Shown: positions 20,732 to 63,795 of the stretch, piece by piece
Numbering within the stretch: the first letter of the stretch is position 1
How the letters are laid out: each line of letters opens with the position of its first letter
Origin: Eretmocerus hayati
Lineage: Eukaryota > Arthropoda > Insecta > Hymenoptera > Aphelinidae
Reading direction: 5' to 3'
DNA length: 64,000 nt
NCBI GenBank assembly: GCA_029851415.1
Contig: CM056742.1
Location: 61,886,454 to 61,950,453 of the forward strand
The notes under the pieces: model-generated
Database searches by the model: none
What the model was told of the DNA's origin: nothing
What the model saw: the letters and a program-made list of their open reading frames with translations, nothing else
Position numbers and translations under genes: made by a program

Positions 20732-21409
20732 CTATGATTTCCCCGCGCGGTAACGGGTCATGTGCAGGCTCAGCGGTACAGACCGCTCCTCCCACCGACA
20801 CACATTCATACATCCACATATTCAACGCGAATATTTGACCATCGAAATGATTTTTGATCATCCAAGTGATATTTCTAGCTCATCCTCTTGAAACATGAAA
20901 AACACAGCATACTCCTTTCACTGTTTCAGCTATACTCCACCTAAACTCCTCTCCCTCCTTCGTTCGCGCTGGCTATACTTCAGCTCTCATACCGCCTATC
21001 ACGTCTCTGAAGTTAGCTCAGGCGAGTCATGCCAAAACAAAAATAACTATGCCAACAATCATTATTCTCTCATCGCTAATTCATTATCACACTGCGGATT
21101 TTATTGCTCTTCCCGTTCTCGAGAAATCGAATCCTGGGCTGACGGAAGCTGAAACTAGGCCAAAAATCGACGGAAGAGCCGTGTTGCGTTGTAACTTTTT
21201 CATTGCTCTAAGAATCTACGAACAAAATGACGTCAATTCTGGAAATGGCAGAGTTATGACGATTATGGGCTGGAATCATATGGAGCTAGCCCAAGGATGG
21301 AGTAAAAAGGAAATCTGCAGGTATGAGACTCGACCGATATTTTGTTAATTTCTTATCGCTCGAAGAAAACACGAACAAAATGGCGCCAGTTGGAGGAACG
21401 GCCGAGTTA
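20729..21409. other. Unassigned stretch with weak ~155 bp repetition
   Basis: Sequence near 21223 (ACAAAATGACGTCAATTCTG) resembles that near 21377 (ACAAAATGGCGCCAGTTGGA), suggesting diverged tandem units leading into the foldback arm. I see no gene. Confidence 0.45.
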
Positions 21410-22060
21410 TGGCGGATGGAGTGAACGGAAATCAGTGAAACTCGTCAGAATAGTCGGAATACTCAGTTTGGGAAACGGATAGTGGTAAATTTATGACCAA
21501 TACCGACAGCCACACACGTGTCAAATATCTGGAAGATGACCATTGATGTGGAGACTGCCCCCTCTCAGATTTCTGGAACCCTCAGAATCTATTACCGCCT
21601 GGGAAATGGACAGAAACCAGTGGAGCTCGCGGAAATGATCGAGATATCGAGTGTGGAGTGGAATCATGATGAATTTTGTCGGGAATGCACGTGTCGAACA
21701 TCGGGAACACGATCATCAATCCGGGAATTTCCCTCTCTGAGATTTTTGAAACCCTCAGAATCCATTACCGACCGGGATGTGGACAGAAACCAGTGAAGCT
21801 CGCGGAATTAATCGAGATATCGAGTTTGAAGTGGATTCATGACGAATTCTGTCAGATACACACGTGCCAAACATCCACAAGATGATCATCAATGTGGGAA
21901 TTGCCTTCTCTGAGGATTCTGGAAACCTCAGGATTCATGACCACTCGAAAAGTGGACAGAAAACGGCGAAACTCACGGAAATCATCGGGATATCGAGTTC
22001 AGAGTTGATTCACGACAATGTCTGTCAATCTGGCCCATGTCAAACATCCACAAGATGATC
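21410..22060. repeat. Left arm of foldback structure 6: ~4 copies of a 173 bp repeat
   Basis: Units with GTGTCAAACATC-like words start at 21518, 21691, 21864 and ~22037, exactly 173 bp apart. The same units occur inverted at ~38990-40270. The recurring peptide frames are not conserved across units because 173 is not a multiple of three. Confidence 0.85.
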
Positions 22061-22497
22061 AACGATGTTGTTGTGTGGTGATCGCATGGAATTCGGTTTT
22101 GGTATTGAACTTGCTATACAGCGCGACAATCTTGGAACACGTGTGAACGATCGAGTGATAAGATAAAGGAACACCCTTGAGCCTTGAGTTTTATGATCGC
22201 GCTCGGCGCCGACTTTCTGTGCGTGGCCGAGTTGCGTCGCCGTGATTTTGAGAGATCTCATGAGCCGCTGGTTGCCCTGTGTACCCGGGTTGACTAAAGG
22301 TGAGTTCAATGCGGCCTGTCGTTCCGTGCCTTTAATGCGGCTGCAATGTTTCCGAGACTGTGCGTTTGTATAGCGTAGCTATCTGTGCTATAAATAGGTC
22401 ATATACTCCAACTTTTGCTGTCACTCAGTTTTCGTCGCATGTTGGCCCTCTCTCTCTCTCTCGTTTGAATAGTGGTCAGCAGCCATTATGGCTTGAT
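22061..22497 (+). other. Interior of foldback structure 6, left of the retrotransposon
   Basis: This is single-copy-looking sequence within the window, with a candidate promoter near its right end and a short CT run at ~22452-22464. No protein domain is visible. Confidence 0.4.
22389..22430 (+). promoter_or_regulatory. Candidate RNA polymerase II core promoter (TATA + initiator)
   Basis: TATAAATA at 22389-22396 is followed by TCACTCAGTT at 22421-22430, which offers two initiator-like TCA motifs. The A residues lie 34 and 38 bases after the start of the TATA box, slightly longer than the usual 30-31. It points toward the SIAH-like pseudogene, but the LTR retrotransposon begins about 70 bases downstream and would separate promoter and gene. 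The call rests on motifs only. Confidence 0.45.
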
Positions 22498-22501
22498 GGC
22501 T
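22498..22501. repeat. LTR retrotransposon target duplication, left (GGCT)
   Basis: GGCT directly precedes the TGTGAC terminus here and directly follows the GTCACA terminus at 36307-36310. Confidence 0.8.
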
Positions 22502-23041
22502 TGTGACAATTCTATCAGATGCATATAGCTCTGATTCGTGGTTTGCCGATAAAATAAGTTAGAGCCAATTCCTCCGAATTCTAGCTCAGGTTCGTGTGAA
22601 ATGTGTTGAGAGGTGATTGATTTAAGACCCGGACTAAGTGCAATGAAGGGGTGATTACGACATCACCACCATAAGGAAAAATGAACTGTGATGCGAAAAA
22701 AATTGAAATAAAACGGTTCAGGGGTGGAGAAGCGGACGCTTTCGCTTCGTAATTTGCAATATGAAGAAAGTGAAAATTCGCGCAGCGACCTTCAACAAAG
22801 AATACAGCAATGTTGTATCGACGAGGGAACCAGCAGGGTCAAGCCCCGGGATGTCCTACCAGCGGTTGCACCTGGTTTAATAGGGCAGGCCGGAATTATA
22901 TGCTATACATATACATACGTAAACATACAGAGACAAAATTGAACATAGATATAAGAAACGGAAGATAAAGATCTACAGGCACTACTTTTATTTATCAATT
23001 ATACGTACTTCTAAAAATTATAGCGAGGAGCGAAGCTGGTT
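22502..23041 (-). repeat. 540 bp tandem duplication of the terminal part of the 3' LTR
   Basis: This block repeats 23042-23581 almost exactly, joined at AGCTGGTT/TGTGAC. In element orientation the last 540 bp of the LTR are present twice. The target duplication abuts the outer copy. At two sites (7-A run near 22698, T near 22989) the outer copy agrees with the 5' LTR while the inner copy differs. Confidence 0.9.
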
Positions 23042-24325
23042 TGTGACAATTCTATCAGATGCATATAGCTCTGATTCGTGGTTTGCCGATAAAATAAGTT
23101 AGAGCCAATTCCTCCGAATTCTAGCTCAGGTTCGTGTGAAATGTGTTGAGAGGTGATTGATTTAAGACCCGGACTAAGTGCAATGAAGGGGTGATTACGA
23201 CATCACCACCATAAGGAAAAATGAACTGTGATGCGAAAAAGATTGAAATAAAACGGTTCAGGGGTGGAGAAGCGGACGCTTTCGCTTCGTAATTTGCAAT
23301 ATGAAGAAAGTGAAAATTCGCGCAGCGACCTTCAACAAAGAATACAGCAATGTTGTATCGACGAGGGAACCAGCAGGGTCAAGCCCCGGGATGTCCTACC
23401 AGCGGTTGCACCTGGTTTAATAGGGCAGGCCGGAATTATATGCTATACATATACATACGTAAACATACAGAGACAAAATTGAACATAGATATAAGAAACG
23501 GAAGATAAAGATCTACAGGCACTACTTTCATTTATCAATTATACGTACTTCTAAAAATTATAGCGAGGAGCGAAGCTGGTTAGTTGAAGAGTGGAAATTT
23601 CTCTTAGAAAAGGCGGCGGCGACAGATGACAGTTGAGCGTGCAACAGCATGTACTGTAGCTGTTGGCGAAGCGGCGCTTGGTGTGGGCAGCACGGATGAT
23701 GAGAATTGCGCTTGCGCGCCAACGATTGCCTCGCTGCGACGTAAGGCGTCTGTGTGATGCTTGGGCCGAGGGCCACAGAGCAAGGGCCAGGGGCCGCTGA
23801 TTATTCCGTGCTGACTTGGGCCGAGGGCCACAGAGTGAGTCTAGGGCCGGAGTCGCTGAGGTTTGCTTGGGCTGAGAGCCCAGTCGCAACTGCCACTTTT
23901 TGGTTGCGCCTGGAGGTGGTTTGTTTTGGTGGCGTTGGCGGCGGCGGTGATGAGTGGGAGGCAGCGCCGGGTGGGGAGGCAGCACGAGCGCATCTAGCGT
24001 TCGTGATGTGAAGCACGCTGCTACTGGCGTCGGTATTATAGTTATCGATTTTACTCGCTCCTCGCTAGTGTACATTTACTTTTATTTGCTAGGTTTATTC
24101 TAATTAATTTAGCAGGCTCCTCGCTAGTGTACATTCATTTTTACTTGCTAGGCTTATTCTAATTAATTCAGCTAGCTTTAGTGTACATTTATCCTTACTT
24201 GCTAGGTTTATTCTAATTAATTTAGCAAGCTCGGCAAGAGGATAATCTAATTTAGTATATTAATTTTATTTAGGTGAATGAGGGTGTTTCCATCTTATAT
24301 TTTAGGAGAGGCGATGGCCGTCACA
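23042..24325 (-). repeat. 3' LTR of the gypsy element (1284 bp)
   Basis: It matches 35023-36306 end to end. Near its start in element orientation are three tandem units with GTGTACATT...CTAGG.TTATTCTAATTAATT (plus-strand positions 24068, 24127, 24181), a layout typical of U3 enhancer repeats. A 174-codon ATG-initiated frame lies in sense (24075-23551) and a 72-codon antisense frame is repeated, but neither has a recognisable domain and I do not call them genes. Confidence 0.95.
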
Positions 24326-24547: not shown

Positions 24548-27500
24548 CTATTCGCCTTGAGTTTTGGAATTTTTTCTCGATTTGATATTTACGTTTTCGC
24601 AATCTATGTGAGATATTCTCAACCTATTGGTATGAACTATTTTGGTGGTCTTGTTCAATTGAATTTTGACATTGTATTTGTTGAATATTTCTAGAATTCT
24701 GTGGGGACCTGTGTATTGATGACCTAATTTTCCAGGCTTAGGGCCTACAAGCAGAAAGACATGGTCACCAACCTTGAAATTGACTGGATTGAGATGTCTG
24801 TCATAGTATTTTTTGGACTTATATTTCGAAGCAACAAGGTTCTGATAAACAAGATTTCTAATGCCATGCAGGCGTGTGACCAAATTTTTTATATAGTCCT
24901 GATAAGTAGGCAACAGGTCAGAATCTTGTAAAGGGTGAGCTGAAGGTAATCTGGCCAGCTTACCAAATACAACTTCATAGGGAGTGTGTTTTATTGACTC
25001 TTGAATGGCCGAGTTATGACATAGGCAAAAGATTTCGACCCACATATCCCATTGTGAATCCTTTTCTGAATATTGTTTGAGAAATTCCCCCAAAGCGTGG
25101 TGAGATCTCTCCAAAGATCCGTTCGACTGCGGTCGGAAGCTAGCGCATTTTATCTTCTTAATGCGAAATCGTTTAGCTACCTTGGATAGTAATTTGCTCA
25201 AGGAATTACGACCTTGATCGGTTAAAATGACTCTGGGTGAGCCAAAAATGCATACAAATCTTCTTATGAAAGCATCAGCAATACTTGATGCTGTGGCATC
25301 TTGTAAGGGTACGGCTAGACAGAATTTTGAAAGTTGGTCTTGCATTGTGAGAATGAATTGGTTGCCATTGGCTGTTTTTTCTAGTGGTCCGACTATATCC
25401 AAGGCTATCTTGTCAAATACTGTCCCAGGCGTGTCAGTAATCATCATTGGTTGGCGAGTTTTCAGCCTAACCAATTTTTTTAGCTGACAGTCTAGGCATT
25501 GCTGTATTCTGCGTTGAATGTCCTGCTTTAAATTTTCCCAATAGTATGTCTGTCGGATTCGATTGAAAGTTTTTGACACGCCCTTGTGCCCACCTACTGG
25601 TGAGGCGTGTAATTCATAGAAAATCTCATCACGATCTTTCTCTTGTACGTATTTCAGTGAGTTTTTGCAAACGATGATTTTGATTTTGGTATTTCGAAAA
25701 ACGGCAACTAAGGAATTTCTTACTTCCTGCCAGGGAACATTATAAACATTTTCGCTTTTAGCTATAGATATTTCGGTAAGATTCTTGTCGATCATCATTT
25801 CTCTCAGCTTGAAGAAGGTTTTGTAAATGCTGTTTTCCACGATGCACTGTGATTCTGGGTCATCAGTTTTTAGACAGAGACAGAAGATGTATTTGTTGTT
25901 TGACCGTTTCAAAAATGATACTTCTCGATAGTTGATAACTTGAGATGGAGGTATTTTATTTCGTTCTAATAGGTTGTTGGCTCCAACGTCACATGGTTTT
26001 CCAGATGTTGTCACAAAACATAGGATGTTATCATCCCGATACGATAAGAGATCTTTTGTTTCAATGATTGTGCCGGAAGGGCATTCTAGATTGGTACTTG
26101 GTTGAGGTCGATCGCTCCAATCGCTCAAGTTTTCCGATCCGTCTGAATTGTCATTTTCTAATGGAGTCTCATCTTCAGCCTCATTGGCTTCAGATCCAGA
26201 GCCTGACGGGTGCGGAGAACTCGATCGATCGGCGGCGTTATCTTTGGCGTTGCCGCATGATTTGGGAATCCTCTTGGGTACCGGTGAATCGTTATGAGTG
26301 GCTCGTTTGATTTTTTCATTTGATTTTGATGTCTTTGTTTTGGAAAATGTCCGTTTTCGGTCTTTCGAGATTTTTGGGGGTTCTGGGTCGACGTTGTCGT
26401 GTTTTTCCAAAGCTTGTTGCCTCGTGACTACTGTTACTTGTTCAATAGGATTTCGAGACAGGGCATCGGCGTTATTATTGAATCTTCCCTGACGGAATTT
26501 TATTTCGTAATCAAAAATTGAAAGCTTGAACCTCCATTTCAATATTCGTGGGTTAAGATCTGCATTCTTGAACCAAATTAGAGGTTGATGATCAGTATAG
26601 ACTGTGAATTTTCTACAGAATAGGTAAGTTTTGAAGGCTTGGACGCAATGCAAAATTGCATAGCATTCCTTGTCATAAGTGTCCCATAGAAGTTGGGGGC
26701 CGCGCAGAGCTTTAGATGTGTAAGCGATTGGTCTTTCTTCATTAATTTTCGTCTGGAACAGCACCCCTCCCACCGCGTACCCGGAGGCATCGCAGCAGAT
26801 GCTCATTGATTGAGACAGGTCAGGAAAGGCTAAGAGAGGGGCCGTGCATAGCGCGTTTTTGAGCGTTTGAAACGATTGTTCACAATCTTCAGACCAAATG
26901 AACGATTCATTTTTCTGTAAGAGCTTCGTCAAGGGTTTAGCTATTTTCGCAAAATTGTCAATGAACCGGCGGTAATAGCCAGCTAGTCCTAAAAATTGGC
27001 GTATATTCTTCACGGTTTTAGGTCGGGGGAACTCTTTCACTGCTTCGATTTTCTTCGGGTCTGGGTTCAGTCCGTTTTCATTCAACACGTGACCTAGATA
27101 TACTACCTCTCGTTTGAGCAATTCGCATTTATCAGGCTCGAGTACCCAGTTAGCTTTCCTGAAGAGACGCATAACTTCGCGGAAAAGATAATCATGAGTT
27201 TCAAGATCACGAGCGTATATAATCGTATCATCCATGTACACCATAACCCCTTTATTCAATAGAGGTTCTAACGTAAGGTTCATTGCCCTCTGATATTCTA
27301 CGGCGGCATTTTTCAGACCGAAGCACATACGGGTCCATTCAAATTTTGAATTCAATCCCGTGAAACTAGTGAGCGGGGCACTATCCGGGTGCATTTTTAT
27401 TTGTAAGAACCCCGATTTGCAATCTATCACGGTGAAATACTTTACTCCGTGTAGTTTATCGAAGATATCTAGAATATTGGGCAAAGGGTATGACATAGGC

Positions 27501-28990
27501 ACTGTTTTGTCGTTCAAAGGTCGCGGATCGACCACTACACGCCACCTCTTCTCACCATTCGAGCCTGGTTTCTTTGGCACCACCCACAAGCTTGAATTAT
27601 AGCTACTTCGCGAGGGCCTAATGAGACCTTGTTTTAGTAAATCATTGAGTTGTCTTTCGACTTCATCCTTCAACGCGTGAGGTATGCGATACTGCTTTGT
27701 ATTTACAGGAATATTGTCAGTTAAAATAATTTTATGTTCAACTACATTGGTGGCGGGTAAGGGTTCTCCTTCTAGATGAAATCTATCTGAGAACTCTCTG
27801 ATAAGCTCGGTAGCATGCTCTTTCTCATTGCCGGACAGATGGTCCATTCTAATTAGGTTGAGCACCTTGAGTTGGCGCTCAGTGTCATTTTGAGTTGAAA
27901 TAGAAAAGCACTGTTCATCATCATTATCGCTCGAATCTGTCCCTTCAATTTCTTCCCAAAATTCTTGTTCCACGGCGCGATTTAAAATCCTATCTTTGTA
28001 GTCTGGGAGAGTGTCATTCAGTTCGGACAAGTTCAAAAAGTCTTCACAGTTTTCTACGATGTCTAATGGTGGCTGGTAGATAGGTTCTATTCTCTTGTTG
28101 AGACGGATCTTTTTGACCCCTATTTGCAGAATTTGCCGTTTGAATTTAATAACTGCTTCGGCTTGCGTGAGAAAAGCAGAACCCAATATACCTTCGGCTG
28201 GGATTGGGAGATCGTCTGATACTACTTGGAATTCGACGGGCATATCAAACAAATCCAACGTGACCGCACCTATGGTTGTGAATAAATCGTTACCTATACC
28301 CTTCAAACGGACGGTACGTTGGGTATCTATCGGTGAATTTTGATCAACGTATTTCCTCTTTATGACGTTACCTTCAGAACCCGTGTCAATAAGGAATTGC
28401 TTGGTGGTTTCTAGTCTAGAGTTGATGATATCCACGTAAAGCAGAGAATTTTCATCAGTGGCAATTTCAATGTTATATACGTTATTTGAGGACATTGAAC
28501 CCTTTTTGAATCGGAGTTTTTGATCATGAATTTGAATTATGTTTGCACCAAAGTCGATGACACTATCTGTTCCGGCTAAGAATCTAGCGCCAAAGATGCC
28601 GTGATGTGGTATTGGAAAATTGTCTTCTAAAACATGGAATTTCACCTTGAAAATCGAAAATTTTATCCATACAGTTCCTAAAGAGGATATTCTATCTTCA
28701 GTAACACCGTATAAATTTACAGGTTTATCTATGTCAACCAATGCGTCTGGCGGTAGAGCACCAATTTTTATCAAATTACCTTGAGAACCAGAATCTATCA
28801 TCATATTAAGCTCTGAATTGAAGAATTGGAAACGTAAGCATGGTATGTTCGCGACAGAAGTTATTCCATTGGCAAAAGTTCGCAGAGAGTATCCGAGAAC
28901 TGTGCAGTGTTCAGAGCGCGCGCTGGTGGTTGGGGTGCGTCTCGACTCGCGCTCAAATTCGAGGCACCCTGTGAGTTTTCCTGTCTCCAA
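24548..28990 (-). CDS. pol: Ty3/gypsy Pol polyprotein with two tandem retropepsin domains
   Basis: The 1480-codon open frame is uninterrupted. Residues ~35-160 form a retropepsin-like domain with MIDSGSQGNLIK (DSG at 66-68) and HHGIFGARFL. Residues ~175-290 form a second with LIDTGSEGNVIK (DTG at 202-204) and AEGILGSAFL. Then come reverse transcriptase (VVDPRPLND, FTVIDCKSGFLQIKM, VYMDDTIIY), RNase H (CCDASGYAVGG, YTDHQPLIW, NNNADALSRNP) and integrase: an HHCC zinc domain (GGHKGVSKT, CLDCQ), a DDE core (ALDIVGP, LTDQGRNSLS, NGSLERSHH) and a GPY/F-like module (YTGPHRIL). All catalytic residues I can check are present. The frame starts without an ATG and lies in -1 relative to gag, overlapping it by 130 nt, so Gag-Pol is probably made by ribosomal frameshifting. 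Confidence 0.95.
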   Translation of the reverse strand: METGKLTGCLEFERESRRTPTTSARSEHCTVLGYSLRTFANGITSVANIPCLRFQFFNSELNMMIDSGSQGNLIKIGALPPDALVDIDKPVNLYGVTEDRISSLGTVWIKFSIFKVKFHVLEDNFPIPHHGIFGARFLAGTDSVIDFGANIIQIHDQKLRFKKGSMSSNNVYNIEIATDENSLLYVDIINSRLETTKQFLIDTGSEGNVIKRKYVDQNSPIDTQRTVRLKGIGNDLFTTIGAVTLDLFDMPVEFQVVSDDLPIPAEGILGSAFLTQAEAVIKFKRQILQIGVKKIRLNKRIEPIYQPPLDIVENCEDFLNLSELNDTLPDYKDRILNRAVEQEFWEEIEGTDSSDNDDEQCFSISTQNDTERQLKVLNLIRMDHLSGNEKEHATELIREFSDRFHLEGEPLPATNVVEHKIILTDNIPVNTKQYRIPHALKDEVERQLNDLLKQGLIRPSRSSYNSSLWVVPKKPGSNGEKRWRVVVDPRPLNDKTVPMSYPLPNILDIFDKLHGVKYFTVIDCKSGFLQIKMHPDSAPLTSFTGLNSKFEWTRMCFGLKNAAVEYQRAMNLTLEPLLNKGVMVYMDDTIIYARDLETHDYLFREVMRLFRKANWVLEPDKCELLKREVVYLGHVLNENGLNPDPKKIEAVKEFPRPKTVKNIRQFLGLAGYYRRFIDNFAKIAKPLTKLLQKNESFIWSEDCEQSFQTLKNALCTAPLLAFPDLSQSMSICCDASGYAVGGVLFQTKINEERPIAYTSKALRGPQLLWDTYDKECYAILHCVQAFKTYLFCRKFTVYTDHQPLIWFKNADLNPRILKWRFKLSIFDYEIKFRQGRFNNNADALSRNPIEQVTVVTRQQALEKHDNVDPEPPKISKDRKRTFSKTKTSKSNEKIKRATHNDSPVPKRIPKSCGNAKDNAADRSSSPHPSGSGSEANEAEDETPLENDNSDGSENLSDWSDRPQPSTNLECPSGTIIETKDLLSYRDDNILCFVTTSGKPCDVGANNLLERNKIPPSQVINYREVSFLKRSNNKYIFCLCLKTDDPESQCIVENSIYKTFFKLREMMIDKNLTEISIAKSENVYNVPWQEVRNSLVAVFRNTKIKIIVCKNSLKYVQEKDRDEIFYELHASPVGGHKGVSKTFNRIRQTYYWENLKQDIQRRIQQCLDCQLKKLVRLKTRQPMMITDTPGTVFDKIALDIVGPLEKTANGNQFILTMQDQLSKFCLAVPLQDATASSIADAFIRRFVCIFGSPRVILTDQGRNSLSKLLSKVAKRFRIKKIKCASFRPQSNGSLERSHHALGEFLKQYSEKDSQWDMWVEIFCLCHNSAIQESIKHTPYEVVFGKLARLPSAHPLQDSDLLPTYQDYIKNLVTRLHGIRNLVYQNLVASKYKSKKYYDRHLNPVNFKVGDHVFLLVGPKPGKLGHQYTGPHRILEIFNKYNVKIQLNKTTKIVHTNRLRISHIDCENVNIKSRKNSKTQGE

Positions 28991-30378
28991 TTTTCATTAA
29001 TTTTCTTCTTACGACACTCGTCCATTGTATGACCGTTGTTCTTGCAATAACGACAAAATTTCACGGATGACCGGCTTTGCTGGCAGTCGGCTGCTGTATG
29101 GCCGGACTTTGAGCATAATTGACACGATACTTCAGGTTTTCTTTCGGTTTCATTGTCACGAGTGATCTGATTTTTAAGTTGATAGCAATTATTGGCGGAA
29201 TGGCCGGTTTTATCACACAGTTGACAAGTAATTGAAGGGAGTTGACTTATTTGATTGCGTAATTTATAACATGAATTGGCTGCATGACCTTCTCGGTCGC
29301 AAAATTGACATATGACCTTCGAACTCAATTGAAGTTTTACCTGAAAACAATTATCGGCTTTATGACCAGGTTTGTTACACACTTGACATGGTTCAGAACG
29401 TTGGCGAATCGGGCAATCAGCGATTATATGACCGGAGTTTTTACAGTAACCACAATTTAATTCAGTTCGCAAAGTGCATCTACTAGTATCGTGATCATTT
29501 GAGCGGCAAGTTTGACAGAAATATACGGCTTTCCTCAACTCGCGAGCCTTAATCAGGGGTTCAGATCTGGAATCTATTTCACCCCTCAAAGCATTTCGGG
29601 CTTCAATTGTTCTTTCGGCTTTGATGGCATTTTCGAAGAGTGTGGATATATCGTCTGAATGTTGGAGTTTGATTTCTATTTCACTTTTGAGACCACGTTT
29701 AAAACAGTCAATAGCGGTTCTATTGACACTTTCTTTGAAACTCTCTGTAACTCTTCCTGAGGTCACTCGTTCGGCTTCAAGCAATTGACGAGCTATGTCT
29801 CGGATGCGATTGGCAAAAGCTAAGACTGTATCGTTTTCGCGCTGAAATTCTTGACCAAGTTCACCTTGTAATTGGGTGACTGTTTTCGCGGGAGCATAAA
29901 TTGTTTTAATGTAATCTTTTAATGCTTCTACGTTTGTAAATGATTTTCCGTGAATAGCTGTTCGGGCTTCACCAATAAGCTTCCCTCGTAATAATTTGGT
30001 CAGGTTGGCTTCGTTTGAAGTTCCAACCATTTCTTTTGCTTCATCGCATCCTTCAAAGAAGACACTAAGTGACGGTTTTTTACCATTGAATTCTGGCACT
30101 ACTTTGAGCGCGTCTTTGAGTGTAATCGCCATTTCAAGGATTTGATCTTCGGCTGGATGTAGAATGACTTGATCCACGACGTTCACAACTTGGTTATTTT
30201 CGTTGAAATTATCCTGCTCGCGGATAGTTATATCAGCTTCAGAGTCTCCACTACTTGACGTTTCGGAACTTTCAGAAGAAGGATCCAAGACTTGTCGAAA
30301 AGGATAAAAGGCGTTTACTTCTTCACTAGCGCTATTACTACTTCGAGCGAGGTTTCGAGTAATGCGCTGCCCGTTCAT
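28861..30378 (-). CDS. gag: Gag with seven CCHC zinc knuckles
   Basis: From the ATG at 30378 the product is 505 residues. The middle (about residues 85-280) has the helical, Leu-rich character of a retrotransposon capsid, including FANRIRDIARQLLEAE and AIDCFKRGLKSEI. The C-terminal third holds seven perfect CX2CX4HX4C knuckles at about residues 288-301, 309-322, 331-344, 357-370, 385-398, 419-432 and 442-455. Most Gag proteins have one or two; seven is the number in the cellular nucleic-acid-binding protein CNBP. The open frame extends upstream of this ATG without another ATG, and the start lies inside the tail of the 232-codon ORF (41 nt overlap). The sequence shows it as the packaging and nucleic-acid chaperone protein of the element. 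Confidence 0.92.
   Translation of the reverse strand: MNGQRITRNLARSSNSASEEVNAFYPFRQVLDPSSESSETSSSGDSEADITIREQDNFNENNQVVNVVDQVILHPAEDQILEMAITLKDALKVVPEFNGKKPSLSVFFEGCDEAKEMVGTSNEANLTKLLRGKLIGEARTAIHGKSFTNVEALKDYIKTIYAPAKTVTQLQGELGQEFQRENDTVLAFANRIRDIARQLLEAERVTSGRVTESFKESVNRTAIDCFKRGLKSEIEIKLQHSDDISTLFENAIKAERTIEARNALRGEIDSRSEPLIKARELRKAVYFCQTCRSNDHDTSRCTLRTELNCGYCKNSGHIIADCPIRQRSEPCQVCNKPGHKADNCFQVKLQLSSKVICQFCDREGHAANSCYKLRNQISQLPSITCQLCDKTGHSANNCYQLKNQITRDNETERKPEVSCQLCSKSGHTAADCQQSRSSVKFCRYCKNNGHTMDECRKKKINENWRQENSQGASNLSASRDAPQPPARALNTAQFSDTLCELLPME
28975..28981 (-). promoter_or_regulatory. Candidate -1 frameshift site in the gag/pol overlap
   Basis: Minus strand reads G GAA AAC in the gag frame near the start of the 130 nt overlap. 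Slipping back one base gives GGA AAA in the pol frame. It is not a canonical X XXY YYZ heptamer because the P-site pairing would be imperfect. No better heptamer was found in the overlap by eye. Confidence 0.35.
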
Positions 30379-31036
30379 GAATTTGTGACAGTGAATAGTA
30401 AAAACAATATAATTTTTTGATAAAGTTGAAGACTTTGGGATGTTCACACAAAGATTCGGTTGATGAGCTCAGCATAAACCAGCGATAGAAATCCGTCGGG
30501 TAAATTTTGAACCGAGAGCAGTTGTAAATCTTTGAATTTTCGGCGTATTCTTTAAGAGTTCTGAGAAGTCTGTCCAAATAAAATATCCTCTCAAATTTCA
30601 CAATTTCAATCTTCTCCAGCAGTAAGGGTATCCTTGAATAGACACCTTGTTCTAAATCAAAGAGCGTACACCGATCAACGAAATATCCGTGCTGATCTTT
30701 CTTTAGGGATCGATCTAAGAATGGGCTTTGCACGAGTTTTTCGGCAAATTTTATAAGATTTTTTGTCAAAATATTATTCAATCCTAAGAATGTAATAGGG
30801 CTAATTAAATTACTTGGAGATTTCAGATATTGAATTATTCCAAACTTACTATTAACAATCTGAATCGATCCGCTATGTAAATCTCTGTGGAAAAAGTACA
30901 CCTTGATTTTACAATAGTTCGCAGAATCGGATTCTAAGATATCCAAAATTTGATGACAATAAAAATAATGTTTTTCAAAAATAGCTTCTTCTGCCAAATT
31001 TTGAAGAGATGGGACCTTCAATGATAACTCATTCAT
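30338..31036 (-). CDS. Accessory ORF, 232 aa, immediately upstream of gag
   Basis: The ATG-initiated frame has no recognised domain. It is rich in aromatic and Leu/Ile residues, with predicted helical stretches such as LNNILTKNLIKFAEKLV and RIFYLDRLLRTLKEYAE, and has no signal peptide or clear membrane span. Its start overlaps the stop of the 92 aa ORF in an ATGAATGA arrangement and its end overlaps the gag start by 41 nt, each step moving the reading frame by +1. Its absence of stops inside a young element suggests it is, or recently was, functional. Function unknown. Confidence 0.65.
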   Translation of the reverse strand: MNELSLKVPSLQNLAEEAIFEKHYFYCHQILDILESDSANYCKIKVYFFHRDLHSGSIQIVNSKFGIIQYLKSPSNLISPITFLGLNNILTKNLIKFAEKLVQSPFLDRSLKKDQHGYFVDRCTLFDLEQGVYSRIPLLLEKIEIVKFERIFYLDRLLRTLKEYAENSKIYNCSRFKIYPTDFYRWFMLSSSTESLCEHPKVFNFIKKLYCFYYSLSQIHERAAHYSKPRSK

Positions 31037-31307
31037 TAGTTAAGCTTAAGTCTCGAAATTTGTTCTCCAGATCTTGGATTGTAAGGAAGTTATCGTGAAG
31101 TTGACACTCGATCGATACTGCAGTTTCTGTGATACTCAATTGTTCACGAGTTAATGCTTTTATCTTACTTTGACAGTAAGAGAGTTGTTGTTCAGCCTCT
31201 TCTACACGTATCCGTAAGGTTTGGCAAAGGATGAATAGGTGCCTGTTCCTGCCTTGAATTTCTCGACACTTGCCTTCGCAGTGGTTGGAAGATGGATTAT
31301 TATTCAT
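31029..31307 (-). CDS. Accessory ORF, 92 aa, coiled-coil-like
   Basis: The ATG at 31307 lies inside the end of the previous ORF (ATGAATAA overlap, 8 nt). After a short CEGKC segment the protein is almost entirely a charged helix with heptad-like spacing (LRIRVEEAEQQLSYCQSKI, NFLTIQDLENKFRDL). I infer a small oligomerising coiled-coil protein. It matches no family I recognise. Confidence 0.6.
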   Translation of the reverse strand: MNNNPSSNHCEGKCREIQGRNRHLFILCQTLRIRVEEAEQQLSYCQSKIKALTREQLSITETAVSIECQLHDNFLTIQDLENKFRDLSLTNE

Positions 31308-31563
31308 TCGAGCGATCGAAAGAATATGAAAATACTAAATTTACTATTCTAGAATTTAAAATTGGTGCTTGGCGAACCGCAGGTGCAATGGTTTGCTCCA
31401 CCCAGGAATTGAATTCTTCAATATCGTCGATCTTTTCGGTGACTGATGTGATTTTATTGCTGATTCTATCAACTCGCTTGAGTAATGATTTGACGTTATT
31501 GATTTGATGTCTTTGCTCCGATAGAATGGAGTCCTGATCGATGTGAAATTTTTGATAATTCAT
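31300..31563 (-). CDS. Accessory ORF, 87 aa, coiled-coil-like
   Basis: From the ATG at 31563 the frame encodes a helix-prone protein (INNVKSLLKRVDRISNKI, SVTEKIDDIEEFNSWVEQT). The frame is open further upstream to 31617, but without an ATG. It overlaps the next ORF by 8 nt. The size and coil character resemble the 92 aa neighbour, so the pair could form a hetero-oligomer, which is inference. Confidence 0.55.
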   Translation of the reverse strand: MNYQKFHIDQDSILSEQRHQINNVKSLLKRVDRISNKITSVTEKIDDIEEFNSWVEQTIAPAVRQAPILNSRIVNLVFSYSFDRSNE

Positions 31564-31613
31564 AGACTTAAAATAAATGCTGGCTTGAATTCCAAGCGGT
31601 GACCTTTCCCAAT

Positions 31614-31889
31614 TCAAGATTCTATGATACTATACGTTGCGAGGAACTCAAGATTAGAAAATGAATATCCCAGAAAAGGGAGTAGAAATTCACTCCGAAA
31701 GTGTGAGGTAAATTGGGGTGCTGAATTGAGATCGAAAATTTTCAATCGATTCTTTTTATTCAAACAAAAATACGAATATTCATCCAACGTCAGGTACACA
31801 TAATGTTGTACTTCGGATAAGTAGATCTTACAGGAACTATCAAAATTATTCTTGTACAAACTTTGAACTTTGATGGCGAACGTTTTCAC
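31614..31889 (-). CDS. Open frame, 91 codons, no ATG
   Basis: The frame lies between the long non-coding gap and the 87 aa ORF. It has no methionine codon at all and opens with AAAATATAG/GTG, which could be a weak 3' splice site. The translation is rich in Tyr, Phe and Leu (VQHYVYLTLDEYSYFCLN) without a known domain. It could be an exon, a relic or chance. Confidence 0.3.
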   Translation of the reverse strand: MKTFAIKVQSLYKNNFDSSCKIYLSEVQHYVYLTLDEYSYFCLNKKNRLKIFDLNSAPQFTSHFRSEFLLPFLGYSFSNLEFLATYSIIES

Positions 31890-32822
31890 CTATATTTTGT
31901 AGAAACGCAGCAGTGCATACAAACTTATGTCGTAGGAATAGGAACTATGTAAAACTCCACGTGGAAGGATTTTAAACTATTAAACACAAGTATCTTGCAC
32001 TCAGGCGAACGTCTCAGAAACAATGAATCTTTCGCAAAAATGCTTCAGCCATCAGCTAGTGATGGATTGTACTTTTGCCGATATAATAGGAACTATCAAA
32101 ATTCAGTATAAACTTAATCTTCCTTACGACTTTCTCTAAAATGACTTGAAACAAAGGACGCAATAGCACTTATATATCATTTATTACTTAATTACGACAA
32201 AATAGGCACTTTGTTAATGGCACTTTGGAATGTTCAGCAATTAGTTTCTGCGTGACCCAACGGTGTGACGACTCAAAAAGGTTACTTCTTTTGGTTTCGG
32301 TATTGATGAATTGAAATAAGCTCACTATTGCAGTTTAGGCTGTTAGGTGGTACAATTGTGAGGTGAGAAAAAAAAAGGGGAAATGCCTCTAAGATTTGTC
32401 AATAAGGTTACGAGTTATGAATTGAAAACTAAAAATAGATCAGTGAACTTATTCTATAAAGGTAGAATCAATTATCCGAATAAGATATAGACGATTCGCT
32501 TTAATTGCGAAAGCCTCAAAACTTATAAATGTACCACGTAGCTTGCAACTGCTACACAAAAGTCTTGTCAAGGCGATGCTAGCGTTTGCTTCTCACCAAT
32601 TCATAAGCTTGGTAACGGGCTCTCGTTAGGTCACGAAACCGATTGCTATTATATTATCGCAGTCTTTCAATTGCTATTATTGCAGTCTTTCTCACTTTGT
32701 ACTATAATCTTTGTATATTTCTCAGGACGAAGGAGAGGATAGAAAAATGAAAATGTGTTTGAAGTGGTTATAGGTGGTTATATGAGATGATGAATATGCG
32801 AGAGCTCGAAATTGTTGAGTGC
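31890..32822 (-). other. Non-coding gap inside the accessory region
   Basis: No frame longer than about 60 codons is present in sense. The short phrase AGGAACTAT recurs near 31833, 31940 and 32088. It may be an intron or internal leader for the downstream ORFs; nothing decisive is visible. Confidence 0.4.
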
Positions 32823-34565
32823 CTATTGGTCAGGGAAGCAACGATCCCACTTGCTCCAATCGAGTGGGTTTTCAAATTCACTCGATTTTTTCATTTGGAG
32901 CACAAAACTCTTATCAGCTTCGACTGAACTGTTTGGAGAGGAAGTTGATGACTCAGAAGAGTTTGATGAGCTGTCAGAGGATGAAGAGGAAGTTGATGAA
33001 TCAGAAGAGTTTGATGAGCTGTCAGAGGATGAAGAGGAAGTTGATGAATCAGAAGAGTTTGATGAGCTGTCAGAGGATGAAGAGGAAGTTGATGAATCAG
33101 AAGAGTTTGATGAGCTGTCAGAGGAAGAGGCCGGTGGAGGATTGGAGAGATGAGCGGGTGATAAAGATCTCTCTCTTTTTTCAGGTGTCAAGGGGGGACT
33201 GAATGGTCGAGCTAGATAATCGAATTCTTCCTGTATTTTTTTAAAAAGTGGAAAATGATTGTATTCCGGGTCGTTGTCTATGGTGTATCGGGCACAAGGA
33301 GTCGGTTTTGTTAGGTCGTGTTGAGCGAGGTGGGATGATGTCTCGTTTTCAGTCAAGGTGGCTACTTCTACACGTGAAGATTCGGCAATAGTCAATGATC
33401 GGGCTTGTGAAGGAGAACTCAAAATTCGACTGGAATTACAAGGAGCAGTCGGCGGGGTCACGAGACCTAACTCCCATGCAAGTTCAAATTCCTGTAAAAT
33501 CTGGGGGAACGCGTCAGCCGGTTCAAAATCAAGTTTTTCTGGAATGAGTTCGTTGTTATGCGAGACTACGTCAAGGAGAGGGTTAGCTTTCTCCTTTCGT
33601 GGAGCTGGTCGAGGACGGTAAATCGGTGAGAACGATGTCTTTTTAGGTATTTGTAGCTCCCGGGCTTCTTTTAGGCTAGGCCTATTTGCGTACTCTCGAA
33701 TGGAGTCCTCCCTAGTCCACTTTTTCTTCGTCGCGGTCTTTCGACGAGCGTTGTATTCATCGAGATTAATTTTCTTTCGAGGTTCACAGGGAGCTAGATC
33801 GGGTGAACGAGAAGGTGAAATTGAGATTTGATTGACTCGTTGTGACCCAAGAACGGAGTCGAGTTGTGAGTCTCGAGAAGGCAATACGGATGATTGAGGA
33901 TGAGTCTCTGATTTTGCAGGTGATGATGAGAATGAATTGTTAGTAAGTTGGTGAGATTTAGAGGGACCAGCGAGTATGTCTATAGCGATGTCAAGCGCCA
34001 CAAGGCCCTTATCATCGTGGGTAATCTTATCAAAATGAGTCTTTTCTGAGCTAACAGATCCTTGCAGGGCTTGAAGAGCACCTGAAGTAATTGTCTCACA
34101 GCGCTTAAGTTCACAATTGGAATTATTTTTTTCAGGAACTACTATAATACTTTTTACGGTAGGTGACTGACCTCTAGAACAAGAATCTTTTCTCGATAGA
34201 CGACTGGCTATTCTAGGATCGCGAGATGACGTAGATTGGAATTGAGGCTCGGGTAAGTGCAGAAATCCATTGGCTCTAGGTGTTAAATCCTGCGGAGGCT
34301 TCGAGGTCTCTGGATAATCCGGAGCACAGAACTTTTTGGATGGATTGATGATCTTGTGATGTGAGCGACGTTCAGCAAAAACTAATAGGTAATCGTCGTC
34401 GCCTCTCTTGAGGTCTCTGTACGAGAGTTTGTAGTCGATCCCTAGGCTGTATAAAAGTCTCTGTAACCGCTGGAGACGCGGTTTCAATTCAACTCGTTCC
34501 TTTTTGCTTGGCCGAGAAACGTGGCGAACCACTGACGGTGATCGTTCTCTCTTGCCTCGATCCAC
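32823..34565 (-). CDS. Accessory ORF, ~580 codons, Ser-rich, no ATG (probable spliced exon)
   Basis: The frame opens after a TAA near 34600 and contains no ATG until its last few dozen codons, so it needs a spliced or non-AUG start. Minus-strand sequence at the start reads TTTTCTCTCCAG/TGG, a good 3' splice acceptor with the junction at 34565/34564. The N-terminus is basic (KPRLQRLQRLLYSLGIDYKL), the middle is polar and probably disordered with many SP/TP sites, and residues ~485-555 are four repeats of a 16-residue Ser/Asp/Asn/Thr unit. The C-terminus is NPLDWSKWDRCFPDQ. I do not recognise a family. The plus-strand acidic frame opposite the repeats is a shadow. Confidence 0.6.
   Translation of the reverse strand: MDRGKRERSPSVVRHVSRPSKKERVELKPRLQRLQRLLYSLGIDYKLSYRDLKRGDDDYLLVFAERRSHHKIINPSKKFCAPDYPETSKPPQDLTPRANGFLHLPEPQFQSTSSRDPRIASRLSRKDSCSRGQSPTVKSIIVVPEKNNSNCELKRCETITSGALQALQGSVSSEKTHFDKITHDDKGLVALDIAIDILAGPSKSHQLTNNSFSSSPAKSETHPQSSVLPSRDSQLDSVLGSQRVNQISISPSRSPDLAPCEPRKKINLDEYNARRKTATKKKWTREDSIREYANRPSLKEARELQIPKKTSFSPIYRPRPAPRKEKANPLLDVVSHNNELIPEKLDFEPADAFPQILQEFELAWELGLVTPPTAPCNSSRILSSPSQARSLTIAESSRVEVATLTENETSSHLAQHDLTKPTPCARYTIDNDPEYNHFPLFKKIQEEFDYLARPFSPPLTPEKRERSLSPAHLSNPPPASSSDSSSNSSDSSTSSSSSDSSSNSSDSSTSSSSSDSSSNSSDSSTSSSSSDSSSNSSESSTSSPNSSVEADKSFVLQMKKSSEFENPLDWSKWDRCFPDQ
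32941..33130. repeat. 48 bp minisatellite, ~4 copies, inside the Ser-rich ORF
   Basis: A unit starting GAAGTTGATGAATCAGAAGA repeats every 48 bp almost without change, keeping frame (16 codons) in the minus-strand ORF. Confidence 0.95.
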
Positions 34566-35000
34566 TGGAGAGAAAAGGAACGAGGTTCTTGAAGAAAATT
34601 ACTTCGATGATATTTTATAAGGAGAAAGATAGCGGGAAGTCGTTAAAGATAGAATTAGAACTTGAAGAAGAGTTCAAGAGCAATACTCGGGTGATATGAA
34701 GGTATCTCAATTTTGATTGCCAAAATTATGAAAATTTCGAGCTAAATTTGACTGATTGGTCTGGAAACGTTTTGATAAAAGATGCGTTTGATATGAGAAG
34801 TGTGACTAAACGTGACGGAACTGAGGTCGTTCTTTCGCGATAGATGAAAATTCAGGAGTTTGAATATCTCTGATTTGATGAATTATATTGATTTTAGAGA
34901 GATATCAGAAGACCGGCGAATAAAATATATATCTTTTCTCTGAAGTCGATTGGACCGACAAGACCTCAACCGGGCAGAATGAATTTTTCCTCAACACATC
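34566..35000 (-). other. Untranslated leader of the gypsy element
   Basis: This lies between the primer binding site and the Ser-rich frame. No long sense frame is present. If that ORF is spliced, the donor must lie here or in the 5' LTR; I could not single out a convincing donor. Confidence 0.5.
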
Positions 35001-35018
35001 CCGATCCGGGAGCCTCCA
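35001..35018 (-). promoter_or_regulatory. Candidate tRNA primer binding site
   Basis: On the minus strand TGGAGGCTCCCGGATCGG begins four bases (TTAA) after the 5' LTR end. TGG is complementary to the CCA end of a tRNA. I could not assign the tRNA from memory. Confidence 0.55.
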
Positions 35019-35022
35019 TTAA

Positions 35023-36306
35023 TGTGACAATTCTATCAGATGCATATAGCTCTGATTCGTGGTTTGCCGATAAAATAGGTTAGAGCCAATTCCTCCGAAT
35101 TCTAGCTCAGGTTCGTGTGAAATGTGTTGAGAGGTGATTGATTTAAGACCCGGACTAAGTGCAATGAAGGGGTGATTACGACATCACCACCATAAGGAAA
35201 AATGAACTGTGATGCGAAAAAAATTGAAATAAAACGGTTCAGGGGTGGAGAAGCGGACGCTTTCGCTTCGTAATTTGCAATATGAAGAAAGTGAAAATTC
35301 GCGCAGCGACCTTCAACAAAGAATACAGCAATGTTGTATCGACGAGGGAACCAGCAGGGTCAAGCCCCGGGATGTCCTACCAGCGGTTGCACCTGGTTTA
35401 ATAGGGCAGGCCGGAATTATATGCTATACATATACATACGTAAACATACAGAGACAAAATTGAACATAGATATAAGAAACGGAAGATAAAGATCTACAGG
35501 CACTACTTTTATTTATCAATTATACGTACTTCTAAAAATTATAGCGAGGAGCGAAGCTGGTTAGTTGAAGAGTGGAAATTTCTCTTAGAAAAGGCGGCGG
35601 CGACAGATGACAGTTGAGCGTGCAACAGCATGTACTGTAGCTGTTGGCGAAGCGGCGCTTGGTGCGGGCAGCACGGATGATGAGAATTGCGCTTGCGCGC
35701 CAACGATTGCCTCGCTGCGACGTAAGGCGTCTGTGTGATGCTTGGGCCGAGGGCCACAGAGCAAGGGCCAGGGGCCGCTGATTATTCCGTGCTGACTTGG
35801 GCCGAGGGCCACAGAGTGAGTCTAGGGCCGGAGCCGCTGAGGTTTGCTTGGGCTGAGAGCCCAGTCGCAACTGCCACTTTTTGGTTGCGCCTGGAGGTGG
35901 TTTGTTTTGGTGGCGTTGGCGGCGGCGGTGATGAGTGGGAGGCAGCGCCGGGTGGGGAGGCAGCACGAGCGCATCTAGCGTTCGTGATGTGAAGCACGCT
36001 GCTACTGGCGTCGGTATTATAGTTATCGATTTTACTCGCTCCTCGCTAGTGTACATTTACTTTTATTTGCTAGGTTTATTCTAATTAATTTAGCAGGCTC
36101 CTCGCTAGTGTACATTCATTTTTACTTGCTAGGCTTATTCTAATTAATTCAGCTAGCTTTAGTGTACATTTATCCTTACTTGCTAGGTTTATTCTAATTA
36201 ATTTAGCAAGCTCGGCAAGAGGATAATCTAATTTAGTATATTAATTTTATTTAGGTGAATGAGGGTGTTTCCATCTTATATTTAAGGAGAGGCGATGGCC
36301 GTCACA
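35023..36306 (-). repeat. 5' LTR of the gypsy element (1284 bp)
   Basis: It is nearly identical to 23042-24325 (about six differences by eye), with the same TGTGAC/GTCACA ends and the same three tandem units near 36049-36216. It lacks the 540 bp duplication seen at the 3' end. Confidence 0.95.
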
Positions 36307-36310
36307 GGCT
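36307..36310. repeat. LTR retrotransposon target duplication, right (GGCT)
   Basis: This matches 22498-22501. Confidence 0.8.
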
Positions 36311-38989: not shown

Positions 38990-40270
38990 ATCCCATGTTC
39001 ACCCAACTCGGCCTTTGTCGGCTGAATGACTCCCCGTGCGGGCGTTGATGAATCCTGAGGGTTTCAGGAATCTCGGAAAGGGCATTGTCTACATCAATAA
39101 TCATCTTCCGGATGTTTGGCACGTGTGTGTCTGACAGAACTCGTCACGAATTCACTTCAAACTCGATATCTCGATGATGACCGCGAGCTCCACTGGTTTC
39201 TGTCCACTTCCCGGGCGTTAATGGAATCTGAGGGTTTCAAAATCATTAGAAGAGGCAATCACTACATCAATCATCATCTTCTGGATGTTTGACACGAGTG
39301 TGTCTGACAGAATTCGTCATGAATCTACTCTGAACTCGGTATCTCGATGATTTCCGCGAGCTCCACTGATTCCTGTCCATTTTCCGGGCGGTGATGATTT
39401 CGACGAGTTCCGAAAATCTCAGAAGGCGCAAATCCCGCATTGATGATCATCTCGTGGATGTTTGGCACGAGCCAGATTGACAGAGCTCTCCATGAATCCA
39501 CTCGGAACTCAATATCTCGATGATTCCTGCGAGTTAGACCATTTTTTGTCTACTGCCTATGCGGTCATAAATCCTGAGGCTCTCAAAATTCTCGAAGGAG
39601 GTGATCTCCACATTAACAATAATCTCGTGCATGGTTGGCATGTGTATGTTTGACGGAACTCGTCATGAATCCACTCCGAACTCAATATCTCGATGATTTT
39701 CGCGAGCTCCACTGGTTTCTGTCAATTCGCTGGTCGGTAATGAATTCTGAGGGTTCCAGGAATCTCAGAGGGGGCAATCTCTACATCAATGGCCATCTTT
39801 TGGATGTTTGGCTCGTGTATCGCTGACAGAATCCGTCATGAATCCACTCCGAACTCGATATCTCGACGATTTCTGCAAGTGACACCGTTTCTTGTCCACT
39901 CCTGGGGCGTTAATAAATTCTGAGGGTTTCAGAATTCTCAGACGGGGTAATCTCTACATCAAGAATCATCTTGTGAATGTTTGGCACGGAAGTGTCTGAC
40001 AGAACTCGTCAAGAATCCACTCCGGACTCGATATCTCGATGATTCCCGCGAGCTCCACTGGTTTCTGTCTACTTCCCGGGCATAATGAATTCTGGGGGCT
40101 AAGGGAATTCCAGAGGGGGCAATCTTCACATCAATGATCATCTTTCAGATGTCTGGCACACGTGTGGCTGACAGGAATGGTCAGTGATTCACCACTATTC
40201 GTCTCCCAAACTGAGTATTCCGAATATATTTACGAGTTTTGCTGATTTCCGCCCACTGCACCCGCCATGT
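38990..40270. repeat. Right arm of foldback structure 6: ~7 copies of the 173 bp repeat, inverted
   Basis: The word GATGTTTGGCACG (or variants) occurs at 39111, 39284, 39457, 39630, 39803, ~39976 and 40148, a constant 173 bp period. The units are the reverse complement of those at 21410-22060, and the outermost pair matches at ~21410 and ~40270. The arms differ in copy number (about 4 and 7). Confidence 0.88.
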
Positions 40271-47110: not shown

Positions 47111-47149
47111 TGACTAGTTCACTTTCTCCGGGGAACGACCACATGACCG

Positions 47150-56345: not shown

Positions 56346-56416
56346 AAATTAGCTGCACTACTGCTGCGCTGTTGCTGCTCTGCTGCTGGGGCTGCTGCTT
56401 ATTCTGCTGCTGCTGC

Positions 56417-56456
<40 letters not shown>

Positions 56457-56470
56457 TAAATCTCTCTCTC
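56346..56470. repeat. CTG-rich and (CT)n microsatellites at the LINE 5' flank
   Basis: Interrupted CTG triplets (56355-56419) lead into two CT runs (56420-56453 and 56461-56475), each followed by ATTAAAT. Confidence 0.9.
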
Positions 56471-63405: not shown

Positions 63406-63795
63406 TGAGATACTTTGAAATGCGACACCGGATGTCTGAGCATTCATTCATTTATTTATTTATTCTTTATTTATCATCTTATTCATTCACTTATCTGAAT
63501 CCTACTTACTACCTGCTTAGCACTTTTCTGAATTATCTAACTCCAAATTGTGAAATTGCTATCTATTACTATCAGAAACCCTCACGGCAAAACATGTTCT
63601 CTGTAATCTATATATGATCGGAATATCTAGTTATATTTAGTTATACATGTGTATGTGTATGTACCCAATGTTTGCCAATCGTATACTATCACAACAGTCT
63701 TTTATTTGTTATAAACATATGTATATTTTCTATCAGGGCTGAATAGGGTTCAATCCCAAAGCCTCAATAAATCACTAATCAATCAATCAATCAAT
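63406..63795 (+). other. 3' untranslated region and (AATC)n tail of LINE copy 2
   Basis: The AT-rich tail region ends in repeats of AATC at 63777-63795, the same kind of tail as LINE copy 1, again followed by CTCTCTCC. Confidence 0.85.

Follow-up and report, generated by a model that had tools for sequence, protein, structure and literature searches.

Four conserved accessory genes and a proposed two-RNA expression scheme in an env-less Ty3/gypsy retrotransposon of Eretmocerus hayati

The element and its accessory frames

The window analyzed here, a stretch of 64,000 nucleotides (nt) from contig CM056742.1 of the aphelinid wasp Eretmocerus hayati (forward-strand positions 61,886,454 to 61,950,453; coordinates below count from its first letter), contains an env-less Ty3/gypsy retrotransposon on its minus strand, with four accessory open reading frames (ORFs) between the 5′ long terminal repeat (LTR) and gag. 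The 5′ LTR (TGTGAC...GTCACA; 35023–36306) and the 3′ LTR that pairs with it (23042–24325) are 99.5% identical over 1,284 bp, and thus the insertion is young. The distance from the end of the 5′ LTR (35023) to the gag ATG (30378) is 4.64 kb. The original prediction, made from the letters alone, had described near-identical LTRs, an interval of ~4.6 kb and a series of frames within it on the gag-pol strand, and all of these were recovered. In the order of the element, the interval contains ORF1 (32823–34564; 579 codons past the inferred split start described below) and the ATG-started ORF87 (31300–31563), ORF92 (31029–31307) and ORF232 (30338–31036). These are followed by gag (28861–30378; 505 codons in the ORF list, with several CCHC zinc knuckles in Pfam) and pol (24548–28993), in which Pfam places two tandem retropepsin-like domains, reverse transcriptase, RNase H and integrase. 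This domain order, the LTR pair, a primer binding site (PBS) adjoining the 5′ LTR and a short target-site duplication identify the element as Ty3/gypsy. No env was found, only 222 nt lying between the pol stop and the 3′ LTR, which sets the element apart from errantiviruses. The pol frame is −1 relative to gag, as judged from the coordinates, and a simple pattern search detected no canonical slippery heptamer in the gag/pol overlap.

The ORF1 frame, defined from the ORF list and by comparison with other copies, had been described as a stop-free, Ser-rich frame of 580 codons. It is indeed open, for 591 codons from stop to stop and 579 after the split start, and it lacks a usable ATG, its sole Met codon being located 23 codons before the stop. 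The encoded protein would have a basic N terminus, Ser/Pro-rich and Ser/Asp-rich regions, 16-residue Ser/Asp repeats and a C-terminal DWSKWDRC motif. The smaller frames are tightly packed: in the window 8 nt are shared by the end of ORF87 and the start of ORF92, 8 nt by ORF92 and the start of ORF232, and 41 nt by the end of ORF232 and gag. In 1,000 dinucleotide shuffles per test, 591 open codons were never reached (longest run 243 for the whole stretch and 229 for the ORF1 part), nor were 232 codons in the last 1.56 kb (longest 184, and 197 in a second run). In that same 1.56 kb, 162 of the 1,000 shuffles contained one run of at least 101 codons and none contained three. Codon usage was not decisive overall: ORF1, ORF87 and ORF92 scored above their own shifted sense frames, yet an antisense frame scored higher in each case, and the score of ORF232 was near zero.

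Searching the genome with the cassette DNA gave 21 rows: the window, 18 rows at 12 places, which were analyzed, and 2 rows at 2 places, which were left out. By identity of the 1,250 nt before gag, the window copy (W) and the 12 other copies (L009–L020) form about six lineages, W/L009/L010, L012/L017, L013–L015, L011/L016 (86% identical), L018 and L019/L020. Among the 12 other copies, 9 have a stop-free ORF92 of full length (the exceptions are L010, with a stop, and L018 and L020, in which the frame is incomplete), ORF232 is intact in 7 (it is broken in L011, L016, L017, L018 and L020), and ORF87 is full length in 7, including L011, where GTG replaces ATG; in L016, L019 and L020 ORF87 is open from residue 8 or 10 through its end. 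The ORF1 frame is open over its whole length in L009, L010, L014 and L015 and, without the C-terminal motif, for 454 codons past its start in L019. It is interrupted by a stop in L013, L011, L016, L017 and L020, while L012 has no ORF1 match and a gag of 191 codons. Stops or shifts are also found in gag in several copies, L010 included. Where compared (W, L012–L015 and L019), the overlaps measure 8–11 nt for ORF87/ORF92, 8–17 nt for ORF92/ORF232 and 41–44 nt for ORF232/gag. Apart from the window, a 91-codon frame (ORF91; 31614–31889, minus strand), which the original prediction had counted in the accessory cassette, is intact in just two copies, the near-identical L009 and L010, and in L011 it is reduced to fragments with stops; it is probably a chance frame. 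The cassette thus stands for ORF1, ORF87, ORF92 and ORF232, which recur in diverged copies, and not for ORF91.

Nonsynonymous-to-synonymous rate ratios (dN/dS) were obtained between lineages, as changes within lineages were too few for inference. For W–L012, W–L013 and L012–L013, respectively, they are 0.19, 0.21 and 0.12 in ORF87; 0.08, saturated (pN/pS, the ratio of the observed proportions of such differences, 0.09) and 0.04 in ORF92; 0.08, 0.08 and 0.07 in ORF232 (range given, 0.07–0.09); and 0.07, 0.06 and 0.12 in gag. Bootstrapping of pN/pS for ORF87, ORF92 and ORF232 in the pairs W–L012 and W–L013 gave upper limits of at most 0.55. Comparisons with L019 reach or approach saturation at the synonymous sites of ORF87, ORF92, ORF232 and gag. 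Loss of the frames from other copies, or dN/dS near 1, had been named beforehand as the mark of passenger frames; the comparison was made, and ORF87, ORF92 and ORF232 gave 0.04–0.21 across three lineages. As read from these alignments, ORF87, ORF92 and ORF232 are under purifying selection comparable to that on gag. ORF1 is 44–58% identical in diverged relatives and 32–38% identical in L019. The four ORF1 database matches listed, from a search in which the 7,994 candidates with most shared words were scored, are all from Eretmocerus hayati, and the three diverged ones are 44–57% identical over 60–71% of the query. The comparisons show ORF1, ORF87, ORF92 and ORF232 to be conserved proteins by sequence, and the shuffles exclude chance frames.

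The original prediction had found these proteins unrecognizable, and profile searches agree: they gave no convincing relative in Pfam or the PDB. The best PDB profile match of ORF1, to long chains (E 5.4e-05; positions 306–404 of 450), was set aside as Ser-rich low complexity. ORF232 has no Pfam match and gave only weak haemoglobin matches in the PDB (E ~1), and its single-sequence structure prediction was useless, with a predicted local distance difference test score (pLDDT) of 36. No ORF232 homologue was found among 178 candidates from a large protein set, which was searched with ORF232, pol and ORF1, or in viral contigs. The family matches of ORF87 and ORF92 in Pfam are weak and mostly to coiled-coil entries, the best being cas_Cpf1_2nd for ORF87 (E 0.0013; two of five members) and Cep57_CLD_2 for ORF92 (E 0.0008; three of five members), with the window's own proteins below curated cut-offs. 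The best of five AlphaFold2 models of ORF92, from one sequence, is one long helix (pLDDT 93), a predicted single helix of 86 residues. We speculate that ORF87, itself coiled-coil-like, and ORF92 might be coiled-coil partners of the capsid.

Among the 120 of 1,537 pol matches listed, the best ten are 45–52% identical over the aligned part. The relatives listed are from Hymenoptera (Trichogramma kaykai, Formica fusca, Cardiocondyla obscurior and others) and from metagenome contigs, and the named best relatives among them are hymenopteran; pol had no match in viral contigs. The tandem retropepsin-like domains, at pol residues ~54–310, are 36% identical to each other over 100 residues (E 5e-23) and contain DSGS and DTGS motifs. 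Two such motifs are also seen by eye in proteins P0001–P0003. A single-chain protease dimer is possible.

ATG depletion ahead of gag

The stretch that runs from ORF1 to gag has been purged of ATG on its sense strand, in all frames of ORF1, in the noncoding gap and in diverged copies alike. In the 4,644 nt between the PBS and the gag start (30379–35022, minus strand), ATG occurs 18 times, compared with 59.2 ± 6.1 in shuffles, and none of 1,000 shuffles was that low; CAT, which is ATG on the other strand, occurs 86 times, compared with 91.5. The deficit is seen in each part, with 5 ATGs against 17.0 in ORF1, 6 against 18.6 in the gap between ORF1 and ORF87, and 4 against 19.2 from ORF87 to gag. 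For the 4.2-kb ORF1-to-gag stretch, the observed-to-expected ratio (O/E) of ATG is 0.29, and it is 0.97 on the opposite strand. The corresponding ATG values for 160 overlapping stretches of the same length, taken from the rest of the window on both strands, have a mean of 0.92 and a minimum of 0.65. In pol, ATG is found 79 times, compared with 83.2 in shuffles.

ATG is the lowest of the 64 trinucleotides in all 6 copies tested of the 13 at hand. Its O/E is 0.29–0.35 in W, L014, L019 and L020, and 0.42 and 0.50 in the decayed copies L016 and L011, which only suggests that the purge may fade with decay. In the 1,250 nt before gag, ATG lies below shuffles in 13 of 13 copies (0 of 200 shuffles that low in 12 of them and 2 of 200 in L018). 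When the protein is held fixed, out-of-frame ATGs in ORF1 number 4 against 12.7 expected in W, 5 against 12.4 in L014 and 2 against 9.4 in L019. Between the start codons of ORF87 and gag, W retains the four starts themselves, one 4-codon upstream ORF (uORF) and the ATG of one in-frame Met. Of the four out-of-frame ATGs in its small ORFs, three are the starts of the next genes. Position −3 is a pyrimidine at the starts of ORF87, ORF92, ORF232 and gag in the copies listed, that is, these starts have a weak context, as in L019, where ORF232 and ORF87 start at CTA-ATG and CTT-ATG.

The ORF1 start and the LTR region

Position 34565, at which the original prediction ended its feature, lies at a conserved, putative 3′ splice site. 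The acceptor, AG|TGGA, is present in all 11 copies with an alignable ORF1 start (window counted; five of the six lineages); downstream of it the ORF1 protein is conserved, upstream the sequence is unrelated, and the tract ahead of it is pyrimidine-rich in copies other than L019 and L020. The putative donor is located in the LTR (35529–35530, minus strand), where TTAGAAGTACGTAT is read as A|GTACGTAT, with exon 1 ending in A at 35530 and AATAAA just downstream. The same A|GTACGTAT is found at the corresponding LTR place in W, L011 and L016, despite much divergence around it. Joining this donor to the acceptor would remove a predicted intron (34565–35529) and assemble A|UGGA, such that the AUG of ORF1 would be split by the intron. 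Splicing itself is likely, as read from the acceptor, the analysis of acceptors being confined to the ORF1 start. The E. hayati gene model P0121 corresponds to copy L009, matching exactly in its ORF1 part and in the last 40 residues of its LTR part, and it implies an LTR exon ending in A and the same acceptor. In the annotation pipeline of this genome transcripts were given the highest weight (PMC10482854); the P0121 junction is taken here as predicted.

A 540-bp partial LTR, first letters AACCAGCTTCGC, directly follows the 3′ LTR (22502–23041, minus strand) and lies within the target-site duplication, AGCC, found at the outer ends of the element (36307–36310 on the 5′ side and 22498–22501 on the 3′ side). 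It reads like an extra R-U5 from aberrant reverse transcription. Its start is equivalent to position 35562, which suggests that the RNA may start near 35562 and that exon 1 would be ~33 nt long. With this extra partial LTR the whole element measures 13.8 kb. The PBS, TGGAGGCTCCCGGATCGG (35001–35018, minus strand), begins 4 nt past the LTR end and was assigned by position alone.

Several further features were observed at these sites. Each LTR carries a 174-codon ATG-started frame (36056–35532 and 24075–23551, minus strand). L019 and L020 are 91% identical to each other, but immediately 5′ of the ORF1 acceptor (oriented positions 3414 and 3056) their sequences become unrelated except for an island of 119 nt, the pattern that an exchange or very rapid evolution of the leader module would give. 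In a second E. hayati gene model, P0124, an ORF1-like protein is by eye fused to the part of pol that lies between RNase H and integrase. Elsewhere in the window there are satellite-like 173-bp tandem repeats (39042–40206, with copies in opposite orientation at 21409–22071), tandem repeats of ~226 bp (45016–47123) and plus-strand frames that by eye resemble non-LTR retrotransposon proteins (56353–57764 and 59280–63408). A recent burst of gypsy insertions has been reported in the E. hayati genome (PMC13116730).

Proposed expression from two RNAs and relation to known systems

We consider it probable that this env-less Ty3/gypsy element expresses its four conserved accessory genes and gag-pol from two RNAs. 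On the unspliced RNA, ribosomes would scan the ATG-poor leader, and leaky scanning, reinitiation or both, at weak starts and short stop/start overlaps, would divide them among ORF87, ORF92, ORF232 and gag-pol. The unspliced RNA would have no start codon for ORF1, the product of which would come from the spliced RNA alone, where the LTR donor ending in A and the acceptor AG|TGGA give the junction AUGGA. Because its start is split by the intron, the long ORF1 would be hidden from ribosomes scanning the genomic RNA. A more specific form of this scheme, to which we give an even chance, is that splicing writes the start codon: the genomic RNA would have been purged of AUG over >4 kb for scanning to the gag array, and removal of the LTR/PBS leader would assemble A|UG and turn on ORF1, possibly an early Rev-like regulator. 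That ORF1 might be a Rev/Rex-type regulator of RNA fate is speculation from its position on the proposed spliced RNA.

Several observations weigh against this scheme. Scanning in rice tungro bacilliform virus (RTBV; PMC5902531) is reported to cover 900 nt, a small fraction of the 4.2-kb leader here, and the gag ATG has a weak context. Ribosomes entering at the cap would meet seven short uORFs in R-U5, where ATG is not depleted (35500–35023; 7 against 8.0 in shuffles), and two more at the PBS. Short uORFs are thus present in the leader, and its folding is no stronger than that of shuffles (z −0.20), which gives no support for a ribosome shunt of the RTBV kind. The trinucleotide bias extends beyond the leader, with pol low in CAT (63 against 82.0; 2 of 1,000 shuffles that low) and gag mildly low in ATG (19 against 26.5; 26 of 1,000). 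With the protein held fixed, the small ORFs taken by themselves show weak depletion (P 0.07–0.29 in W and 0.06–0.92 in L012, L013, L014 and L019), and L020, in which ORF1 and ORF232 are broken, still has an O/E of 0.34, such that fading of the purge with decay is inconsistent. As to the intron, the pyrimidine tract is poor in L019 and L020, the two other copies that support the donor, L011 and L016, are closely related, donors in the L013–L015 and L019/L020 lineages were not identified with confidence, and P0121 uses another donor and begins at an ATG in the LTR, the 174-codon LTR frame of L009 being its exon 1. Regarding selection, dN/dS for ORF87 between W and L019 is 0.37 at a dS of 1.8, and the result for ORF1 is a pN below pS in two saturated pairs (0.30/0.81 with L014 and 0.50/0.76 with L019).

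The very long leader, the uORFs of R-U5 and the weak gag context would all be accommodated if an internal ribosome entry site (IRES) or an internal promoter, rather than scanning from the cap, gave access to gag and the small ORFs. Entry near ORF87 or gag would, however, leave ATG in ORF1 and the noncoding gap free of selection, and ATG is scarce in each (5 compared with 17.0 and 6 compared with 18.6 in shuffles), in diverged copies too; we regard this alternative as unlikely. Splicing is usual in retroviruses, and the ORF1 acceptor makes it likely here, such that every ORF could have its own spliced RNA, as in complex retroviruses, with no polycistronic scanning. An ORF1 that is spliced out would not need to be purged of ATG, and the conservation of the 8–17 nt overlaps and of the 41–44 nt overlap with gag also argues against separate RNAs, an arrangement that seems to us improbable on an analysis of acceptors that covered the ORF1 start. 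A real if lesser possibility alters one step of the two-RNA scheme and leaves the rest unchanged: sharing among ORF87, ORF92, ORF232 and gag might occur mainly by termination-reinitiation at the stop/start overlaps, leaky scanning being minor. Overlaps of 8–11 nt for ORF87/ORF92 and 8–17 nt for ORF92/ORF232 would suit this mechanism, whereas the 41–44 nt between ORF232 and gag is long for reinitiation, and the weak start contexts and the ATG purge favor leaky scanning.

Two further alternatives concern the proteins themselves. That the frames are functionless passengers or chance frames is scarcely credible: ORF232 has no homologue among the 178 candidates, ORF1 contains low-complexity Ser repeats, codon-usage scores are not decisive and ORF91 really is of this kind, but the dN/dS values of 0.04–0.21, the intact frames in diverged copies and the absence of comparable runs in 1,000 shuffles argue otherwise. 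In position, strand and small size the ORFs recall the small ORFs sORF1 and sORF2 of Drosophila MDG1-group elements (PMC11952523), and one of them might accordingly be a membrane fusogen for cell-to-cell spread, like the fusion-associated small transmembrane (FAST) proteins. No segment in sense-frame pieces of at least 30 codons between LTR and gag exceeds the hydropathy cut-off (19-residue mean of 1.5), and the proteins start with Met-Asn (Met-Ser in some ORF92 copies), not with the MG of an N-myristoylation motif, such that a fusogen is disfavored and very improbable.

The ATG purge and the putative split ORF1 start, which are the most unusual features of the element, were missed by the original prediction. 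Within the library and the words used, titles and abstracts of the literature searched contained no ATG-purged leader or split start codon in an animal LTR element. If the two-RNA scheme is correct, an animal retroelement would solve the problem of making many proteins from one mRNA by a kilobase-scale purge of start codons and an intron-split start. The ATG count is a signature readable from DNA alone, and it might serve to find polycistronic leaders in other eukaryotic elements. In addition, four families of uncharacterized, conserved retroelement proteins are added.

Ogre elements of plants harbor an extra ORF between the 5′ LTR and gag. The E. hayati element resembles these and other plant Ty3/gypsy elements in having additional coding sequence 5′ of gag, the host here being a wasp and not a plant. 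Additional ORFs of plant elements (aORFs) can occur upstream of gag-pol (PMC7264820). The original prediction also held that such a cassette seems unusual for an animal element; there is, however, animal precedent in the MDG1 group of Drosophila (412, mdg1 and Stalker), where sORF1 and sORF2 are located upstream of gag (PMC11952523). According to that source, the two sORFs are ~110 and 70 residues long, transcripts are reported as unspliced, and sORF2 is a transmembrane, FAST-like protein and a candidate for Envelope-independent spread between cells. Like the MDG1 group, the element described here is an env-less animal Ty3/gypsy with conserved sense-strand accessory ORFs between 5′ LTR and gag. 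Compared by description, it differs in having four ORFs of up to 579 codons, no membrane segment, putative splicing and an ATG purge.

The closest likeness in mechanism is to RTBV, in which leaky scanning reportedly proceeds through AUG-free ORFs for 900 nt and splicing provides P4 (PMC5902531). As in RTBV and badnaviruses, consecutive ORFs with short stop/start overlaps and weak starts are cleared of internal AUGs, and, as in RTBV, one ORF would be expressed from a spliced RNA. The likeness is one of mechanism, not of lineage: the element class and the host kingdom are different, the scanned region is ~4.2 kb here, compared with 0.9 kb, and the spliced ORF is downstream in RTBV and inside the scanned leader here. 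Should splicing indeed write the ORF1 start codon, the pararetroviral strategy would have its counterpart in an animal element, here with a switch based on a split codon. Accessory ORFs upstream of gag are already known and the purging strategy is known in plants; what differs in the E. hayati element is the scale of the purge and the putative split codon.

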